This document shows positions 11,207 through 18,715 of a stretch of DNA of 45,166 nucleotides, piece after piece. Where the stretch lies: NCBI GenBank assembly GCA_028717805.1, contig JAQUNC010000015.1, positions 1 through 45,166 of the forward strand, in the 5' to 3' direction. The notes beneath the pieces were generated by a model. The model worked only from the letters and a program-made list of their open reading frames with translations, was not told the origin of the DNA and ran no database searches. Source of the DNA: Atribacterota bacterium (lineage in GTDB: Bacteria; Atribacterota; Phoenicimicrobiia; Phoenicimicrobiales; Stramentimicrobiaceae). The translations under genes and the position numbers were made by a program. Position 1 is the first letter of the stretch; every line of letters starts with the position of its first letter.

Positions 11207-12586
11207 TTGTCTCTACTTTTTCAACATTTAGGTTTTAAAGAAGTAAATTTTGTGGTTACATATATTTTGTCTGTCCTGTTAACCTCACGTTATACTATGG
11301 GATATGCTTATGGGATTATAGCATCGGTCATTTCCATGTTTTTCTTTAATTTCTTTTTTACTGAGCCCATATATAGCTTTAATGTGGATGATCCCACTTA
11401 CATTTTTACCTTTATGGTAATATTAATTGCTGCTGTTTTTACCAGTGCATTGACCAGCAAACTAATCTTCTCAAAGGAACTTGCCGATAAACAGGAGAAA
11501 CAAGCAAAAACGTTATATCAGATTACCAGCTCTCTGGCAAAAACCGGAGGTGTAGAAGAGGTTGCTGTTGTCTCGGTACAATGTTTGGTAGACCTGTTAA
11601 AAAGTGATGTAATTTTTATTATAATAAATCAAAAAGATAATACAGTAAAAAAATTAGCACCTGCATTATCTGGATATGGTATTATTGTGAAGGATATTAA
11701 ACTAGATAATATTGAAGATATAATATTAAATCATTATACTTTCCCCATTATAGTTCGCGAAAGGTATGTCGGTTATATTTGCTTACCTAAAGAATTGGAG
11801 AATATAGAAAATGAAAACCGGTTTATTTTGGATTCAGTTATTATGCAAATTACTATTGCTATACAGCGAGAAATGCTTACTGCTGAAAAAGAAGCTGCCA
11901 AAGCTGAAACTGATAGAGAAAGGTTAAGGAGTAATTTACTTAGAGCAATTTCCCATGACTTAAGAACTCCACTTACCGGAATTATGGGGTCTGCCGAGAT
12001 GCTTCTACAACAACTTGAAAGCAAAAAACACATTAAATTAGTACAGGATATATATGAAGAGTCAGGTTGGCTTATTCGTTTGGTTGAGAATATTTTAAGC
12101 CTAACTATGATTAAGGAAGGACGTTTGGCTGTTAATATTAAACCAGAGGCAGTGGAAGAAATAGTAGCAGAAGCTGTAAGCCGTGCTTCAAAATATACAC
12201 CTAATAATAGGATTTCTATTTCAGTTCCAGAGGATGTATTATTTGCACCAATGGACGGGAAATTAATAGTGCAGGTTCTTATTAATATTATTGACAATGC
12301 AATAAAACACACAATACCAACTGATGAGATTCATGTATCAGTTCAAGTGGAAGATAAGAAAGCCTGGTTTGAAGTATCAGATAATGGGATAGGAATTAAT
12401 GAAAAGGATTTACCAAAGATTTTTGATATGTTTTTTACTACTCGAAATTCTCATATAGATGCAAAGCACGGAATTGGACTAGGACTGGCTATCTGTAAAG
12501 TGATTGTGAATTTTCATGGTGGGGAAATATTTGCGAAGAAAAATAAAGAAAAAGGTTCTACCTTTAGATTTTATCTCAATCTTTGA
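11207..12586 (+). CDS. KdpD-type sensor histidine kinase, short form
   Basis: This is a membrane sensor kinase related to the C-terminal half of KdpD. The first ~85 residues are hydrophobic and match the four-helix DUF4118 membrane domain of KdpD. A GAF-like region (about 95-220) follows, then the dimerisation helix with the phospho-accepting His250 in ISHDLRTPL, the N box IIDNAIKHT, and ATP-lid motifs DNGIGI and GIGLGL. The N-terminal KdpD and UspA sensor domains of full-length KdpD (about 890 residues) are absent. The only conventional start is TTG 11207, without a clear ribosome site, and it cuts off the first membrane helix, because the open frame continues back to 11123. The regulator gene begins 13 bases downstream and a TrkH gene follows, so the pair probably controls potassium uptake or osmotic response. 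Confidence 0.82.
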   Translation: MSLLFQHLGFKEVNFVVTYILSVLLTSRYTMGYAYGIIASVISMFFFNFFFTEPIYSFNVDDPTYIFTFMVILIAAVFTSALTSKLIFSKELADKQEKQAKTLYQITSSLAKTGGVEEVAVVSVQCLVDLLKSDVIFIIINQKDNTVKKLAPALSGYGIIVKDIKLDNIEDIILNHYTFPIIVRERYVGYICLPKELENIENENRFILDSVIMQITIAIQREMLTAEKEAAKAETDRERLRSNLLRAISHDLRTPLTGIMGSAEMLLQQLESKKHIKLVQDIYEESGWLIRLVENILSLTMIKEGRLAVNIKPEAVEEIVAEAVSRASKYTPNNRISISVPEDVLFAPMDGKLIVQVLINIIDNAIKHTIPTDEIHVSVQVEDKKAWFEVSDNGIGINEKDLPKIFDMFFTTRNSHIDAKHGIGLGLAICKVIVNFHGGEIFAKKNKEKGSTFRFYLNL

Positions 12587-12599
12587 AGTAAGGGTGGCA

Positions 12600-13286
12600 A
12601 TGTTGTTTTTAATTATTGAAGATGATATTAAAATAAGAAAGTTCATTAATTTTTCACTTAAATTCCAGAAGTATGACTGTATTGAAGCAGCAACAGGAAA
12701 AGAAGCCATGAGTCTTTTAGCTACTCAACAGAATCTCAAGGCAATTATCCTGGATTTAGGATTACCCGATATGGATGGGCTTGATATCATCAAGCAGGTA
12801 CGTGAGTTTTCAGATGTTCCTATTATTGTGGTATCTGCTCGAGATCAGGATAATGAAAAGGTGGAGGCGCTGGATGCTGGAGCTGATGATTATCTAACCA
12901 AACCATTCAGTATTAAAGAGTTACTTGCAAGAATTCGTGTAGTCTTTAGACACAGCAAAGATAATAAAAAAGAAGTAGTGACCTCCATTTATAAGATTGC
13001 CAATTTAGAAGTAGACTTAGAGAAGCATAGAGTAATATTAGATAGCAGGGAGATACATTTTACACCGATAGAATATCAAATACTCACTTTATTGATTAAA
13101 AATGCTGGTAAGGTTTTAACTCATAACTATATCTTAAGAGAAGTATGGGGAACTTACCTTGATACCGATATGCAATCTTTACGGGTATTTATGGCAAACA
13201 TTAGAAGAAAGCTGGAGGAAAATCCAGCAAAACCTAGATATATTATAACTGAAGTAGGAATTGGATACCGTTTTAATGATGAGTAA
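12600..13286 (+). CDS. KdpE/OmpR-family response regulator
   Basis: This is the DNA-binding partner of the upstream kinase. The receiver domain (1-~115) has the acidic pair IEDD, the phosphorylation site Asp52 in LDLGLPDMDG, and the KPF lysine switch. The C-terminal winged helix (about 130-226) has the OmpR pattern ending in RYIITEVGIGYRF. The start is placed at ATG 12600 because AAGGGTGG precedes it and receiver domains begin at this point; a longer frame from 12516 would overlap the kinase gene. The protein is 228 residues, normal for the family. It probably regulates trkH, which lies next, and perhaps its own operon. Confidence 0.92.
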   Translation: MLFLIIEDDIKIRKFINFSLKFQKYDCIEAATGKEAMSLLATQQNLKAIILDLGLPDMDGLDIIKQVREFSDVPIIVVSARDQDNEKVEALDAGADDYLTKPFSIKELLARIRVVFRHSKDNKKEVVTSIYKIANLEVDLEKHRVILDSREIHFTPIEYQILTLLIKNAGKVLTHNYILREVWGTYLDTDMQSLRVFMANIRRKLEENPAKPRYIITEVGIGYRFNDE

Positions 13287-13350
13287 TGATATAACAAGGG
13301 GTAATGAATAACAAGCTAACATCTGATTATTTATACAATCTTTATATGAA

Positions 13351-13393
13351 CCTCGATATAATATGTGTGTTTTGGAAGTAGATATTATCGAGG
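13351..13393 (+). promoter_or_regulatory. Hairpin covering the trkH ribosome-binding site
   Basis: CCTCGATA (13351-13358) can pair with TATCGAGG (13386-13393), and the pairing continues imperfectly inward (ATAATA/TATTAT). The right arm contains the start of GAGGTGA (13390-13396), the ribosome site for ATG 13409. A TATAAT at 13357-13362 within the left arm could alternatively be a promoter -10 box. Confidence 0.45.
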
Positions 13394-13408
13394 TGAATTT
13401 ATTTATAT

Positions 13409-14854
13409 ATGAGTTTTAAAGTAATTGGAAATATGCTTGGGAAGTTATTGATGTATTTTAGTACATTAATGATTTTTCCTCTCTTGGCTGCGTATCATTA
13501 TCATGAAATAATTGCAGTGATAGCATTTATATGGTCTATTATAATTACCTTTTTAACCGGTTTATTTTTACAAGTCTTATGTTCGTTTAAAAATTCTATT
13601 GGCAACAAAGAGAGCTACCTTATTGCTACTCTTGGCTGGGTATTTGTCTCTGGATTTAGTACACTTCCTTTTCTTTTCAGTAAAACCATTCCAGATTTTC
13701 TTAATGCCTATTTTGAACGTATGTCTGGATATACTGCAACAGGTGCAACGATATTAACCGATATTGAATCAAATCCACTTTCCATTTTACTTTGGAGAAA
13801 TGAAATTCAATGGATTGGGGGAATGGGAATCATTCTCTTGGTGGTGGCTTTGTTACCTCTTCTAGGAGTAAGCGGAATGAGATTGGTGAAATCCGAATTT
13901 CCTGGATTTGAGTTGGATAAAATAAAACCGAGAATATTGGAAACCGCAAGGACTATTTGGCTAATTTATATTTTTATTACTCTTGCAGAGATTATATGCC
14001 TATATTTATTTGGCATGCCTTTATTTGATGCAATTATAAATACATTTGGCACTGTTCCTACTGGGGGTTTTAATCTCAAAAATAATAGTATCGCTTATTA
14101 TAATAATGTTATTTTTGAAATTATTATCATGATTTTTATGTTTATATCCGCTGTTAATTTTAGCTTACATTATCGATTTTTTAGAGGTGATCGAAAAGTA
14201 TATTATAAAGATCAAGAATTTTTATTTTTTATATCTATTATCTTGATTTCAATATTATTAGTAACTTTACAGTTGAGATTTTCTATTTATGATTCTATAC
14301 ACAATGCTTTAAGATATGCCTCATTTCAAGTTGTATCGATAGTTACCACAACTGGTTTTATAAATGCGGATTATGGTAATTGGCCACACTTTTCACAACT
14401 TATTTTAGTGTTATTGATGTTTTTAGGTGGTTGTGTGGGTTCAACTGCCGGAGCCATTAAAAGCGTTAGAATGCTATTGATGTTCAAACAGTTAAAACAA
14501 AGCTTTGATAAATTACTCCATCCTCATGCAATAGTGCAAGTTCGTCTGGGAGGTAAAGTTATTTCTGATGATATCATGCAAAGCATTAAATCTTTTTTCC
14601 TCATTTATATTTTTGTTTTCATAGCAGGTGTGATGATAATTACTGCTACAGGCTTAGATATTACTAGTGCTATAGGCGCGGTGGCTGCTACTTTAGGAGG
14701 CGTAGGACCTGGTTTAGGACTGGTTGGCCCTACTCAGAATTATGCCTTTACTTCTTCTATTGGTAAGATAACTTTAATTATTTGTATGCTTTTAGGTCGT
14801 TTAGAAATATACACCGTAATTGTTTTGCTTGTGCCAGAATTCTGGAAAAAATAG
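13409..14854 (+). CDS. TrkH/KtrB-family potassium transporter
   Basis: This integral membrane protein carries potassium (with sodium or protons) into the cell. The 481 residues form about ten helices in the four-fold MPM repeat design of the family. Pore-loop-like glycine motifs are visible: GYTATGATIL, TVPTGGFN, VSIVTTTGFI and AATLGGVGPGLG, one for each selectivity-filter repeat. The length fits TrkH better than KtrB. The required cytoplasmic RCK/TrkA subunit is not encoded in this window. ATG 13409 follows GAGGTGA. It lies downstream of the KdpD/KdpE-like pair, replacing the KdpFABC pump that such pairs usually control. Confidence 0.9.
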   Translation: MSFKVIGNMLGKLLMYFSTLMIFPLLAAYHYHEIIAVIAFIWSIIITFLTGLFLQVLCSFKNSIGNKESYLIATLGWVFVSGFSTLPFLFSKTIPDFLNAYFERMSGYTATGATILTDIESNPLSILLWRNEIQWIGGMGIILLVVALLPLLGVSGMRLVKSEFPGFELDKIKPRILETARTIWLIYIFITLAEIICLYLFGMPLFDAIINTFGTVPTGGFNLKNNSIAYYNNVIFEIIIMIFMFISAVNFSLHYRFFRGDRKVYYKDQEFLFFISIILISILLVTLQLRFSIYDSIHNALRYASFQVVSIVTTTGFINADYGNWPHFSQLILVLLMFLGGCVGSTAGAIKSVRMLLMFKQLKQSFDKLLHPHAIVQVRLGGKVISDDIMQSIKSFFLIYIFVFIAGVMIITATGLDITSAIGAVAATLGGVGPGLGLVGPTQNYAFTSSIGKITLIICMLLGRLEIYTVIVLLVPEFWKK

Positions 14855-15104: not shown

Positions 15105-15317
15105 ATGAAAATAAGCGCCAGAAATATGCTCAAAGGCAAAGTCAAAGCCATTACTGAAGGAGCCGTTAATGATGAGGTGATTATTGGATTACCCAATGGT
15201 TTGGAAATTACTTCTGTCATTACCAAATCTTCTGTCCATAACTTGGCATTGGAAGTAGGTAAAGAAGTATATGCAGTTATCAAAGCTAGTAATGTGATGA
15301 TAGCGGTTGATGAGTAA
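15105..15317 (+). CDS. Molbindin, Mop-type TOBE protein
   Basis: This small cytoplasmic protein binds molybdate or tungstate oxyanions, as a store or homeostasis protein. All 70 residues are one TOBE/Mop domain: ISARNMLKGKVKAITEGAVNDEV at the start, SVITKSSVHNL in the middle and VYAVIKASNVMIAV at the end. These are the family's oxyanion-contacting segments. Family members form hexamers of this single domain. ATG 15105 follows GGGAGGAATT. It has its own promoter candidate and precedes the riboswitch-controlled transport genes. Confidence 0.92.
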   Translation: MKISARNMLKGKVKAITEGAVNDEVIIGLPNGLEITSVITKSSVHNLALEVGKEVYAVIKASNVMIAVDE

Positions 15318-15357: not shown

Positions 15358-15385
15358 TTGACAAAATACTAATATCATTTATAAT
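15358..15385 (+). promoter_or_regulatory. Promoter of the molybdenum/tungsten transport operon
   Basis: TTGACA at 15358-15363 and TATAAT at 15380-15385 are separated by 16 bases. The transcript would start near 15392 and carry the riboswitch as its leader. Confidence 0.7.
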
Positions 15386-15443
15386 TTACAGTGGCGTTAG
15401 AATGAAATTTCCGTAAAATGATATGTAGTATAATAATAATTAA

Positions 15444-15557
15444 TCTCTTCGATTTGCCTGGTCTAAGGAGTATTCTATGACCGGTAAACACAAGATGCAA
15501 AAGGTCTTAAGGGCTTAGATAGAAATGTCAAAGCCTCCCGTGTTTGGAAAGGAGAGA
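15444..15557 (+). promoter_or_regulatory. Moco/Tuco-type riboswitch aptamer
   Basis: The segment with GCCTCCCGTGTTTGGAAAGG (15533-15552) resembles the conserved 3' part of the Moco RNA motif, recognised from memory. Stems can be drawn: UCUCUUC (15444-15450) with GGAGAGA (15551-15557) closes the domain; CUGGUC pairs with GACCGG (right arm ending near 15484); GGGCUU (15510-15515) pairs with AAGCCU (15531-15536). The position between molbindin and a molybdate/tungstate permease fits the known targets of this class. Whether molybdenum or tungsten cofactor is sensed cannot be read here. The closing stem contains the ribosome site of a short leader frame at 15561. Confidence 0.75.
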
Positions 15558-15560
15558 ATC

Positions 15561-15593
15561 ATGAAGTTAAAAATATATAGCAGTACTTTTTGA
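15561..15593 (+). CDS. Ten-codon leader peptide of the riboswitch
   Basis: ATG 15561 follows AAAGGAGAGAATC, one of the best ribosome sites in the region, and opens a 10-codon frame (MKLKIYSSTF) ending in TGA at 15591-15593. The ribosome site is the right strand of the riboswitch closing stem. The stop codon falls inside the left arm of the terminator at 15577-15631. Its likely role is to place a ribosome on the terminator rather than to make a functional peptide. No direct evidence of translation exists here. Confidence 0.6.
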   Translation: MKLKIYSSTF

Positions 15594-15638
15594 TCTAACT
15601 TGTTGTTAGAAATATCAAAAGGCGCTGCTATTTTATTT
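15577..15638 (+). terminator. Riboswitch-controlled terminator upstream of modB
   Basis: The 18-base arms 15577-15594 and 15614-15631 pair with one mismatch and two G-U pairs. A small inner hairpin CTAAC/GTTAG (15595-15609) lies in the loop, and TTTTATTT follows. It stands between the aptamer and the permease gene and would cut off the operon when formed. Confidence 0.8.
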
Positions 15639-15672
15639 CTGGGGAAAATATTATCTTAGGGAAAGAGTATAA

Positions 15673-15708
15673 ATGTCTATGAAAATAATAAAATGGTTTG
15701 CTTATTAA
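15673..15708 (+). CDS. Second mini-frame coupled to the permease start
   Basis: ATG 15673 after AGGGAAAGAGTATAA opens an 11-codon frame (MSMKIIKWFAY) whose stop TAA at 15706-15708 is one base from the permease ATG at 15710. The permease start has no ribosome site of its own, so this frame may deliver ribosomes to it by translational coupling. It could also be chance. Confidence 0.4.
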   Translation: MSMKIIKWFAY

Positions 15709-15709
15709 G

Positions 15710-16513
15710 ATGAGAAAAAATATCGATATGTTCTATCTAATTTTTATTTTACTTGGGATCATTACTATCTTGTTTATACTTCTTCCACCACTAAAGACTA
15801 TTCTCTATACCCCATTGTCTATATTGTGGAATACGATTTTAGACCCGGAAGTAAATTACTCAATCTATTTAACTGTGACAGCTGCATTGACAGCAACGAC
15901 TATTGGTTTTTTATTGGGAGTGCCCTTGGCTTATCTATTGGCCAGGCATCATTTTTTGGGCAAAAAGATATTAGAGGCAATGATAGATATACCCATTGTA
16001 ATACCGCATTCTGCAGCAGGAGTAGCTCTTTTATTTGTATTTGGCCGTAATTATTTTCTGGGGAGAGTTTTTAAAATTATCGGTATCGATTTTTTCCAGA
16101 CCTTTGCTGGGATTGTCCTGGCTATGATGTTTGTTAGTGTTCCCTTTTTAATTGATTCAGCCAAGGAAGGCTTTATAGCCATTAATACTGAATTAGAAGA
16201 GATTGCCTATACCTATGGAGCGTCACATTGGCAGGTATTCTGGTATATATCCCTGCCTTTAGCCTTAAAAAGTATTTACTCCGGCTCCATTCTCATGTGG
16301 GGACGTGGTGTAAGCGAATTTGGCGCAGTAATGATCATTGCTTATAATGCTTCCTTTTTGGGCAAGAGTGGAAAGGCATTGCCAGTTTTAGTATCTGACC
16401 GCTTTAATTTTGGTCTTTCCTATGCTCGTCCTATTGCAGCTCTGGGAGTGTTAATATCGCTTATTATCTTTATAATTTTAAGGATTTTAATAACCAGAAA
16501 TAAAAACAATTAA
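15710..16513 (+). CDS. Molybdate/tungstate ABC transporter permease (ModB/WtpB type)
   Basis: This is the membrane channel of an oxyanion ABC importer. The 267 residues contain about six helices and the binding-protein-dependent transport domain, with the cytoplasmic EAA loop reading EEIAYTYGASHWQVFWYISLP at about 164-184, where the ATPase docks. IDIPIVIPHSAAGVALL is characteristic of ModB-like permeases. A TTG at 15698 could give four more residues; neither start has a clear ribosome site, and ATG 15710 is chosen because the preceding mini-frame ends next to it. The binding protein gene lies two genes on, but no ATPase gene is present in the window. Confidence 0.88.
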   Translation: MRKNIDMFYLIFILLGIITILFILLPPLKTILYTPLSILWNTILDPEVNYSIYLTVTAALTATTIGFLLGVPLAYLLARHHFLGKKILEAMIDIPIVIPHSAAGVALLFVFGRNYFLGRVFKIIGIDFFQTFAGIVLAMMFVSVPFLIDSAKEGFIAINTELEEIAYTYGASHWQVFWYISLPLALKSIYSGSILMWGRGVSEFGAVMIIAYNASFLGKSGKALPVLVSDRFNFGLSYARPIAALGVLISLIIFIILRILITRNKNN

Positions 16514-16610: not shown

Positions 16611-17588
16611 TTGAAGATAAATAAATTTAAAGTAGCAATTTTATGGGTAGTGATAACTATAATGTTTTGTACAGTAAGCAGTGTTTTGATAGCGCAGGAA
16701 GATATTGCCTTAAAAATAGCTTCTGGTGATACTGTAAAAACACTGACTATGGAGGAGATTAAAGAGTTACCTGCTTTGGAAGGCTGGGGCGGAAGAATGC
16801 GCAGCACTGGTGCTATTGAGGGACCTTTTGAATTAAGGGGAGTCTCTATAATAGATCTATGTGATATGGTTGGAGGAATAAATCCTGATACCGCGGTTAA
16901 GTTTATCTCCAGAGACGGTTATGCCATGACCTTCAGCTATAAACAGGTAAAAGAGAATGATTTTATTACTTATGACCCAGTTTCTCTCAATGAAGTGCCT
17001 CATGGTGATCTACATATGATTCTGGCTTACCAGACTGATGGAGATGAAATGACTTTTGAGCTGGGAGGCCCACTAAGACTGGCTATCCTCAGTGAAAAGA
17101 ACCAGGTGACTGATGGTCATTGGTGGAGTAAATGGGTTGAGCAGATTGAACTGGTTCCAGCTCCCAAAGATTGGATTTTACAGTTAAAAGGTGCCCGAGA
17201 TGAAGATATTGATAGAGGTACATTCGAATCCGGTGCCTCTGAAGGATGCCATGGTGTTAAATATATTGACGATAAAGGTAGGGAGTGGGAAGGCATTCCT
17301 CTTTGGTTACTGGTAGGACGGGTAGATGATGATAATCCTCATGAAGGTAAAGCCTTTAATGATTCCCTGGTACAGGATGGTTATGAGGTAGAAGTTATTG
17401 CTGTAGACGGATTTATTGCTACTTTGCCTATTTCTTCTATCGCTCGCAGGAATCAAATTATTGTAGCTTATAAATTGGACGGAGAATCCTTACCAGAAAA
17501 TTACTGGCCATTAAGACTGGTTGGAGAAAACTTAACCGGGAAAGAACAGGTGGGGCAAATCAAAGAGATTAAAGTAATTTTCCCATAA
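16611..17588 (+). CDS. Secreted molybdopterin-oxidoreductase-like protein with duplicated domain
   Basis: A signal peptide or membrane anchor (about 1-28) leads into two related domains of the sulfite-oxidase/YedY molybdopterin-binding type, about 33-183 and 188-325. Both halves share a hydrophobic patch (RGVSIIDLCDMVG / EGIPLWLLVGRVDD), a DGY or DGF turn (DGYAMTFSY / DGFIATLPI) and a late PLRL segment. The second half has GASEGCHGVKY (about 206-216), whose Cys could be the metal-ligand position; the first half lacks an equivalent Cys. It may bind a molybdenum or tungsten cofactor or the oxyanion outside the cytoplasm, but catalysis is not shown. TTG 16611 follows GGAGGAATAAG. It lies between the permease and binding protein of the transporter, so it shares the riboswitch control. 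Confidence 0.72.
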   Translation: MKINKFKVAILWVVITIMFCTVSSVLIAQEDIALKIASGDTVKTLTMEEIKELPALEGWGGRMRSTGAIEGPFELRGVSIIDLCDMVGGINPDTAVKFISRDGYAMTFSYKQVKENDFITYDPVSLNEVPHGDLHMILAYQTDGDEMTFELGGPLRLAILSEKNQVTDGHWWSKWVEQIELVPAPKDWILQLKGARDEDIDRGTFESGASEGCHGVKYIDDKGREWEGIPLWLLVGRVDDDNPHEGKAFNDSLVQDGYEVEVIAVDGFIATLPISSIARRNQIIVAYKLDGESLPENYWPLRLVGENLTGKEQVGQIKEIKVIFP

Positions 17589-17632: not shown

Positions 17633-18715
17633 ATGACAACAAAATTGTTCAGAAAAGCTGTTCTAGGTGCCTTTTTGCTTTTGTTAATTCTTGGTTTAGT
17701 TTTAACAGGATTTTGTCAGGAGAAAAAAACTGTCAAAATCCAAGCAGCTGGCAGCTTATTAATTCCTTTTGGAGCGATAGAAAAAGCATTTGAGGCAGAA
17801 AATTCAGATATTGATGTCCTTGTTGAAGGGCATGGTAGTATTCAGGTTATTAGGCATGTCATTGAACTGCCAGCTTTTTCAGGAGAGCCTATTGCTGATA
17901 TTGTTGCAGTGGCAGATTATTCGTTGATACCAAAATTGATGTATGAAACAATGCTTCCGGAAAGTAACCAACCTTATGCTGAGTGGTGTATCCAATTTGG
18001 TACAAATACTCTAGGATTAGCTTATACCTCTAAGAGCAAATATGCTAAAGAGATAAACGTAGATAACTGGTATCAAATTCTAGCCAGGCCAGAGGTAAAG
18101 GTAGGAATTTCGGATCCCCGCTTTGATGCCTGTGGTTATCGGTCTTTGATGGCTTTAAAATTAGCAGAATTATTTTATCGAGAAGAAGATATACTACATA
18201 GTATAATTGGAAGATTCTCTTATCCTATCAAAGTGCAAGAAAATGATAGTAGCTGCACAATTCTGATTCCAGAAATTTTGGAAGCGGAAAGGCTTGCTAT
18301 CAGAGATTCCAGTATCAAATTACTTTTCCCTATTCAGTCAGGCGACCTGGATTATGTTTTTGAGTATAAAAGTGTTGCCCAGCAGCATGAGGTCAACTTT
18401 CTGGAGTTTCCACCGGAAATTAACCTAGGTTCTGAGGAATACAAAACATTGTATCAGGATATGAAAGTCAAACTGGCTTTTAAAAGATTTGCTTCAGTCA
18501 ATCCGGATTATGATATTTTACCTATTATCTATGGAATGACAATTCCCGGTAATTCCCCTCATCCGCAAGAGGCAGTCAGGTTAGTGGAATTTATCCTGAG
18601 TCAGCGTGGTCAGGAGATAATGGAAGAATCAGGGCAGGTTGTCATTAATCCACCCATTGTGGATATTTTAGATAATCTTCTCCAGCAATTAGCTGATATA
18701 GTAATCGAAAAATAG
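17633..18715 (+). CDS. Tungstate/molybdate-binding protein, WtpA type
   Basis: This is the extracytoplasmic solute-binding component that feeds the ModB-like permease. The 360-residue protein has an N-terminal signal sequence (about 1-28), possibly a lipoprotein as it ends LTGFCQ. The oxyanion-binding fold starts QAAGSLLIPFGAIEKAFE and has GSIQVIRHVIEL, ADIVAVADYSLIP and the GISDPRFDACGYRSLMALKLAE segment, typical of WtpA/ModA group III proteins that prefer tungstate. ATG 17633 follows GGGGAGGAATA. It is the last gene of the riboswitch operon and ends before a long hairpin. Confidence 0.9.
   Translation: MTTKLFRKAVLGAFLLLLILGLVLTGFCQEKKTVKIQAAGSLLIPFGAIEKAFEAENSDIDVLVEGHGSIQVIRHVIELPAFSGEPIADIVAVADYSLIPKLMYETMLPESNQPYAEWCIQFGTNTLGLAYTSKSKYAKEINVDNWYQILARPEVKVGISDPRFDACGYRSLMALKLAELFYREEDILHSIIGRFSYPIKVQENDSSCTILIPEILEAERLAIRDSSIKLLFPIQSGDLDYVFEYKSVAQQHEVNFLEFPPEINLGSEEYKTLYQDMKVKLAFKRFASVNPDYDILPIIYGMTIPGNSPHPQEAVRLVEFILSQRGQEIMEESGQVVINPPIVDILDNLLQQLADIVIEK

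Follow-up and report, generated by a model that had tools for sequence, protein, structure and literature searches.

A Moco/Tuco riboswitch leader in Atribacterota with a mini-ORF that overlaps an intrinsic terminator: a possible ribosome-mediated expression platform

We analyzed a 45,166-nucleotide stretch (the window) of contig C15 from an Atribacterota genome (G000). A sigma-70-type promoter (TTGACA-16-TATAAT; positions 15358 to 15385, forward strand) matches the consensus at 12 of 12 positions and aligns with promoters in the orthologous leaders of all relatives described below as group A, with the exception of an altered -35 element in L072. The putative regulated gene (15710 to 16513, forward strand) codes for a WtpB-like molybdate/tungstate ABC permease. 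Its best family match was NF040839, with 257.7 bits, yet this score is below the curated cut-off of the family; the match to PF00528 exceeds its cut-off. Downstream in the operon, on the same strand, are genes for a molybdopterin-domain protein (16611 to 17588; PF00174, 50.8 bits), also present in the orthologous operons L056 and L024, and for the tungstate/molybdate-binding protein WtpA (17633 to 18715; TIGR03730, 294.6 bits, cut-off 242.75). Molybdenum/tungsten uptake by the WtpB-like permease and WtpA, together with the molybdopterin-domain protein, is a gene context that fits a Moco riboswitch. A small Mop/TOBE gene lies upstream of the promoter (15105 to 15317), and the region just upstream (11207 to 14854) encodes a KdpD-like kinase, a KdpE-like regulator, and a TrkH potassium transporter.

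The leader contains a Moco/Tuco riboswitch aptamer. The covariance model RF01055 matched positions 15435 to 15570 of the forward strand over its full length (model positions 1 to 135), with 78.8 bits (E value of 1.4e-17) against a gathering score of 36 bits, and both P3 and the GAAA loop of P4 are present. A sequence-only reading of this DNA had suggested the Moco class and had held that the lack of a match to the Rfam model would speak against it; the match removes that objection. The minimum free energy (MFE) fold and the model alignment place the 5′ strand of P1, UCUCUUC, at 15444 to 15450, and sequence and MFE fold place its 3′ strand, GGAGAGA, at 15551 to 15557, both on the forward strand. 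This closing pair had been proposed earlier with coordinates that proved exact to the base. The 3′ strand is also the Shine-Dalgarno (SD) sequence of a leader mini-ORF, and GGAGAGA is identical in all six group A leaders. Elsewhere in the 2.27-Mb genome, Moco RNA matches were found on contigs C28, C14, C7, and C20, which with that on C15 makes five, four of them above the cut-off; the expression platforms of the five differ.

The mini-ORF (15561 to 15593, forward strand) has 10 codons, MKLKIYSSTF*, with its ATG at 15561, an SD spacing of 6 nt, and a TGA stop codon at 15591 to 15593. It runs into an intrinsic terminator hairpin (15577 to 15631, forward strand) composed of a left arm (15577 to 15594), an apical stem (15595 to 15599 paired with 15605 to 15609), and a right arm (15614 to 15631), followed by the U-rich tract UUUUAUUU (15631 to 15638), which reads TTTTATTT or TTTTTTATTT in relatives. 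The predicted energy of the hairpin was -24.0 kcal/mol, and none of 200 shuffled sequences was as good (z of -6.15). A simple terminator scan of the window did not report this hairpin. The sequence-only reading had described a strong terminator overlapping the frame, the GGAG as the ribosome site of the 10-codon frame, and the stop codon inside the left arm, and the sequence and folding agree with it on each of these features. An SD and a short open reading frame overlapping the left arm are the layout of a leader-peptide attenuator. The frame ends more than 110 nt upstream of the wtpB start, and the leader is not a usual translational Moco platform, since the SD in P1 serves the 10-codon frame and not the regulated gene.

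The pattern GGAGAGANNNATG occurs once in the 45 kb, compared to 0.10 expected. The mini-ORF alone is not improbable, since shuffling the spacer recreated an ATG at good spacing and a stop codon in the left arm in 5 to 8% of trials. Two further features were observed in this region. The start-codon region (15558 to 15567) can pair with part of the left arm (15585 to 15594); this hairpin is kept in L040 with two compensatory pair changes, and the other group A leaders have a different start-codon hairpin. Moreover, a second mini-ORF, MSMKIIKWFAY* (15673 to 15708), ends one base 5′ of the wtpB ATG. A frame of the same place and length is found in L040 (MTIKRRKGFAY*) and is absent from L041, L043, L045, and L072. 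Since wtpB has no evident SD, coupling of this second frame to wtpB is possible.

Using Rfam searches, we collected 57 Moco RNA matches from 23 Atribacterota genomes and grouped them by expression platform. Group A comprises the leaders of wtpB operons, six including that of the window, from five genomes, two families, and about three lineages; the orthologs besides the window (L040, L041, L043, L045, and L072) come from four genomes. All of them keep the UCUCUUC/GGAGAGA pair and the arrangement GGAGAGA-N3-ATG, with a spacing of 6. The frames have 10 codons, or 13 in L072, and their stop codons fall 12 to 22 nt into the left arm. The ortholog frames read MKPVIYSSVF, MKLITEAVLF, MKLITKAVLF (two copies), and MKLITEAVLFLRY. 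The window and the L041/L043 type differ by a 1-nt deletion before the arm together with a stop codon shifted by 1 nt, so that the frame length stays at 10 codons. Start and stop placement is thus kept in six leaders of about three lineages, as for a leader-peptide attenuator, and the possibility that the mini-ORF and its stop in the arm would lack conservation, which had been named as counting against the earlier proposal, was not borne out in any of the five orthologs. Because the lineages number about three and each leader carries the 5 to 8% chance estimated by shuffling, this conservation is supportive and not proof. We found neither runs of regulatory codons nor a conserved stalling peptide of the trp, his, or tna type in the group A peptides, which vary freely; the leader is therefore not a trp-type attenuator. 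Which amino acids the frame encodes probably does not matter; what the orthologs retain is the position of its start and stop. We also considered whether all Moco RNAs keep the mini-ORF and rejected this, as groups C, D, and E are mostly devoid of an SD or a start codon.

To look for an RNA antiterminator, we cut the leaders before the right arm of the terminator and determined by constrained folding the cost of opening P1. This approach replaced an earlier search based on duplex energies with shuffled arms, which was not decisive because it was too noisy in AU-rich arms. The test covered the leaders in which P1 and the terminator were correctly detected, leaving aside L076, L047, L049, L081, L082, and group F. 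In all six group A leaders, the aptamer and P1 were predicted to stay intact, and opening P1 cost +5.0 to +7.7 kcal/mol. The textbook arrangement was predicted for the majority of leaders in groups B, D, and E: the conserved aptamer segment CCCGUGUUUGG (or CCCGUAU) pairs with the left arm while P1 opens. Group C was intermediate, with a cost of 1.8 to 5.4 kcal/mol. In this limited thermodynamic test, no antiterminator exclusive with P1 was predicted in any of the six group A leaders, and the folding disfavors an RNA-only switch in this group. The absence of a predicted antiterminator is not decisive, since group C and some distant leaders without a mini-ORF also favor P1 (ddG up to +5.8 in the latter), and outside Atribacterota the test failed to separate mini-ORF leaders from the others.

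For recurrence, we sampled 80 Moco leaders from distant families. All three leaders of one family (L149, L157, and L101) have frames of 5 codons each starting from the SD in P1 (MFSPS, MDISI, and MFLLN), with stop codons 1 to 2 nt before the left arm. In genus g52 (L170, L171, and L172), a frame of 19 to 26 codons runs from the SD in P1 through a hairpin, and its stop codon overlaps the wtpB start; the wtpB products of L170 and L172 are 50 to 52% identical to that of the window. L121 and L091 are single cases of such a frame touching a terminator or hairpin. Of 77 leaders that have an SD but no gene starting directly from it, 29 carry a well-spaced ATG, compared to 9.4 expected from shuffled sequences. 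When each family is represented by a single leader, this excess shrinks to 6.1 versus 3.0 (p of about 0.07); a few families contribute most of the enrichment. In about 15 of the 80 distant leaders, the adjacent gene uses the SD in P1 directly. A scan of viral contigs for the SD/ATG motif gave one phage match, which was unrelated.

Additional short frames were seen in other leader sets. In group B, from family f2 (L066 to L071, L073, L075 to L077, and L079), short frames lie between P1 and a CCAACAC terminator. Most consist of an SD, 8 or 9 nt, AUG (once GUG), one codon, and a stop codon 9 to 11 nt before the terminator, and A/G changes in start and stop preserve the codon function. The frame of L073 is 4 codons long, and L074 lacks one; leaders with these mini-frames also have a predicted RNA antiterminator. 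In genus g135, a leader peptide of 22 to 25 amino acids (MRFVYSDY...LIIFFYP) starts from the SD in P1 and is conserved in four genomes (L179 to L182), although L182 seems to carry an in-frame insertion of 9 nt; a terminator was not found in any of these four leaders. A second set of Moco leaders from this genus (L183 to L186) has frames of 20 or 50 to 61 codons after the SD in P1 that are similar within genome pairs. In four of four group C leaders (L008, L009, L012, and L013), a short frame without an SD (e.g., MFISGLP* or MFVFGLP*) ends in the terminator loop, which may only reflect the hairpin sequence.

We propose, as the best-supported reading, that the leader is an OFF riboswitch for Moco (or Tuco) whose expression platform is the mini-ORF overlapping the intrinsic terminator, and we give this proposal about an even chance of being correct. 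The SD in the 3′ strand of P1 and the stop codon in the left arm are read from the sequence itself, and no competing helix between aptamer and arm is predicted for group A. According to our model, when cofactor is scarce, P1 would be open for enough of the time that a ribosome could load onto the mini-ORF and translate it. A ribosome at the stop codon, with its P site at 15588 to 15590, would reach with its leading edge to about 15604 and cover the left arm; with the arm covered, RNA polymerase would read into wtpB. Bound cofactor would stabilize P1 and hold the SD, no ribosome would load, the hairpin would form, and uptake would stop. This is the wiring put forward by the sequence-only reading, and it has gained from the conserved placement of the mini-ORF, the lack of a predicted antiterminator in group A, and the analogous mini-ORFs of other families; translation of the frame, ligand binding, and the direction of regulation are steps that we infer. 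Work in E. coli showed that termination falls from about 90% to under 10% when a stop codon lies 5 bp before a terminator; with more than 27 nt between the two, the repression is gone and termination is full (PMC4824070). Our main doubt is kinetic: a ribosome would have to load and translate 10 codons in the time that the polymerase needs to clear about 70 nt. Pausing of the polymerase would help; in E. coli, unless such a pause occurs, a ribosome is said to be unlikely to catch up with RNA polymerase over the first 100 bp (PMC4824070).

We weighed three other explanations. In classical RNA-only attenuation, an aptamer or leader segment would pair with the left arm in the absence of ligand and the mini-ORF would be incidental. 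In the phylum, the majority of other Moco leaders with a terminator are predicted to work this way, by pairing of CCCGUGUUUGG with the left arm, but in all six group A leaders no left-arm pairing beats P1 (ddG of +5.0 to +7.7). Two weak candidates were found. One pairs a P2 segment of the aptamer with the left arm (-14.9 kcal/mol; shuffle p of 0.12), but it was seen in L002 only and is not common to the relatives. The other pairs the start-codon region AUCAUGAAGU with ACUUUUUGAU and is the hairpin that L040 retains through two compensatory pair changes; since it does not overlap P1, the ligand would not directly control it. We consider RNA-only attenuation unlikely for this leader.

Alternatively, the mini-ORF could be a relic of a translational Moco platform, and the terminator could damp expression constitutively or be read through by independent means. 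An SD in P1 belongs to the family consensus; E. coli moaA (PMC2408646) and the roughly 15 distant leaders mentioned above use it directly, and in a comparable SAM-II leader an SD and AUG1 are combined with an intrinsic terminator for which no antiterminator is predicted (PMC9373788). Retention of start and stop placement in the orthologs and similar frames in unrelated families argue against a relic, which we regard as distinctly improbable. Translation of the mini-ORF might also have a different role: to hold P1 open, to protect the leader against Rho or RNases, or to hand ribosomes to wtpB. The g52 frame that ends on the wtpB start codon is in line with the last of these, and a riboswitch-controlled upstream frame with termination-reinitiation coupling is known from M. 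tuberculosis ppe2 (PMC11260477). The mini-ORF of the window, however, stops more than 110 nt before wtpB and inside a strong terminator, and such roles appear very improbable to us.

Control of a terminator by a ribosome on a leader frame has precedents. The signal at the E. coli pyrBI attenuator is polymerase pausing, set by the UTP level, and not an aptamer. At the E. coli ampC attenuator, a ribosome on a minimal leader frame has been proposed to block the terminator in response to growth rate, again without an aptamer; this attenuator resembles the AUG-X-stop leaders of group B. The likeness of pyrBI to our model is that a ribosome on the leader frame prevents the terminator hairpin (discussed in PMC4824070). 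Among Moco RNAs, Regulski et al. (2008) described platforms with the ribosome site in P1 and platforms with terminators; the terms leader peptide and stop codon are absent from their text (PMC2408646). E. coli moaA shares with the window the aptamer class, a ribosome site in the 3′ strand of P1, and expected repression by the ligand, but its SD serves the regulated gene, whereas that of the window serves a 10-codon frame ending inside a terminator (PMC2408646). Moco RNAs with intrinsic terminators likewise present an aptamer, a terminator, and then the operon (PMC2408646), but group A is devoid of a predicted RNA-only antiterminator and has a leader frame that bridges aptamer and terminator. 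In the S. meliloti metA SAM-II riboswitch, an SD sequestered near AUG1 also precedes an intrinsic terminator that has been verified and for which no antiterminator is predicted, but AUG1 is in frame with metA and is unused in its natural context, and a link between translation and termination was not shown there (PMC9373788). The B12 riboswitch of M. tuberculosis ppe2 hides the SD of a short upstream frame, and the gene depends on translation of this frame, but the riboswitch works mainly by termination-reinitiation coupling and has no intrinsic terminator (PMC11260477). Judged by title and within incomplete literature coverage, we found no paper on a wiring of Moco riboswitch, leader peptide, and terminator. 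The combination of a Moco riboswitch bearing its SD in P1 with ribosome-mediated control of an intrinsic terminator, each of a kind already known, is therefore provisionally novel.

More broadly, these leaders could represent a recurrent and undescribed Moco/Tuco platform of several families, in which P1 gates ribosome loading on a mini-ORF that either occludes the terminator or continues across it into the gene; one element would then read both cofactor level and translation capacity. We hold this wider reading tentatively, at somewhat less than an even chance. The start and stop codons of the mini-ORF provide single-base test points. If the model is true, an SD-sequestering riboswitch can control intrinsic termination through the ribosome and not through an RNA antiterminator, which would offer a simple route by which translational control could evolve into transcriptional control, and a reading of Moco RNA function where no antiterminator can be drawn.
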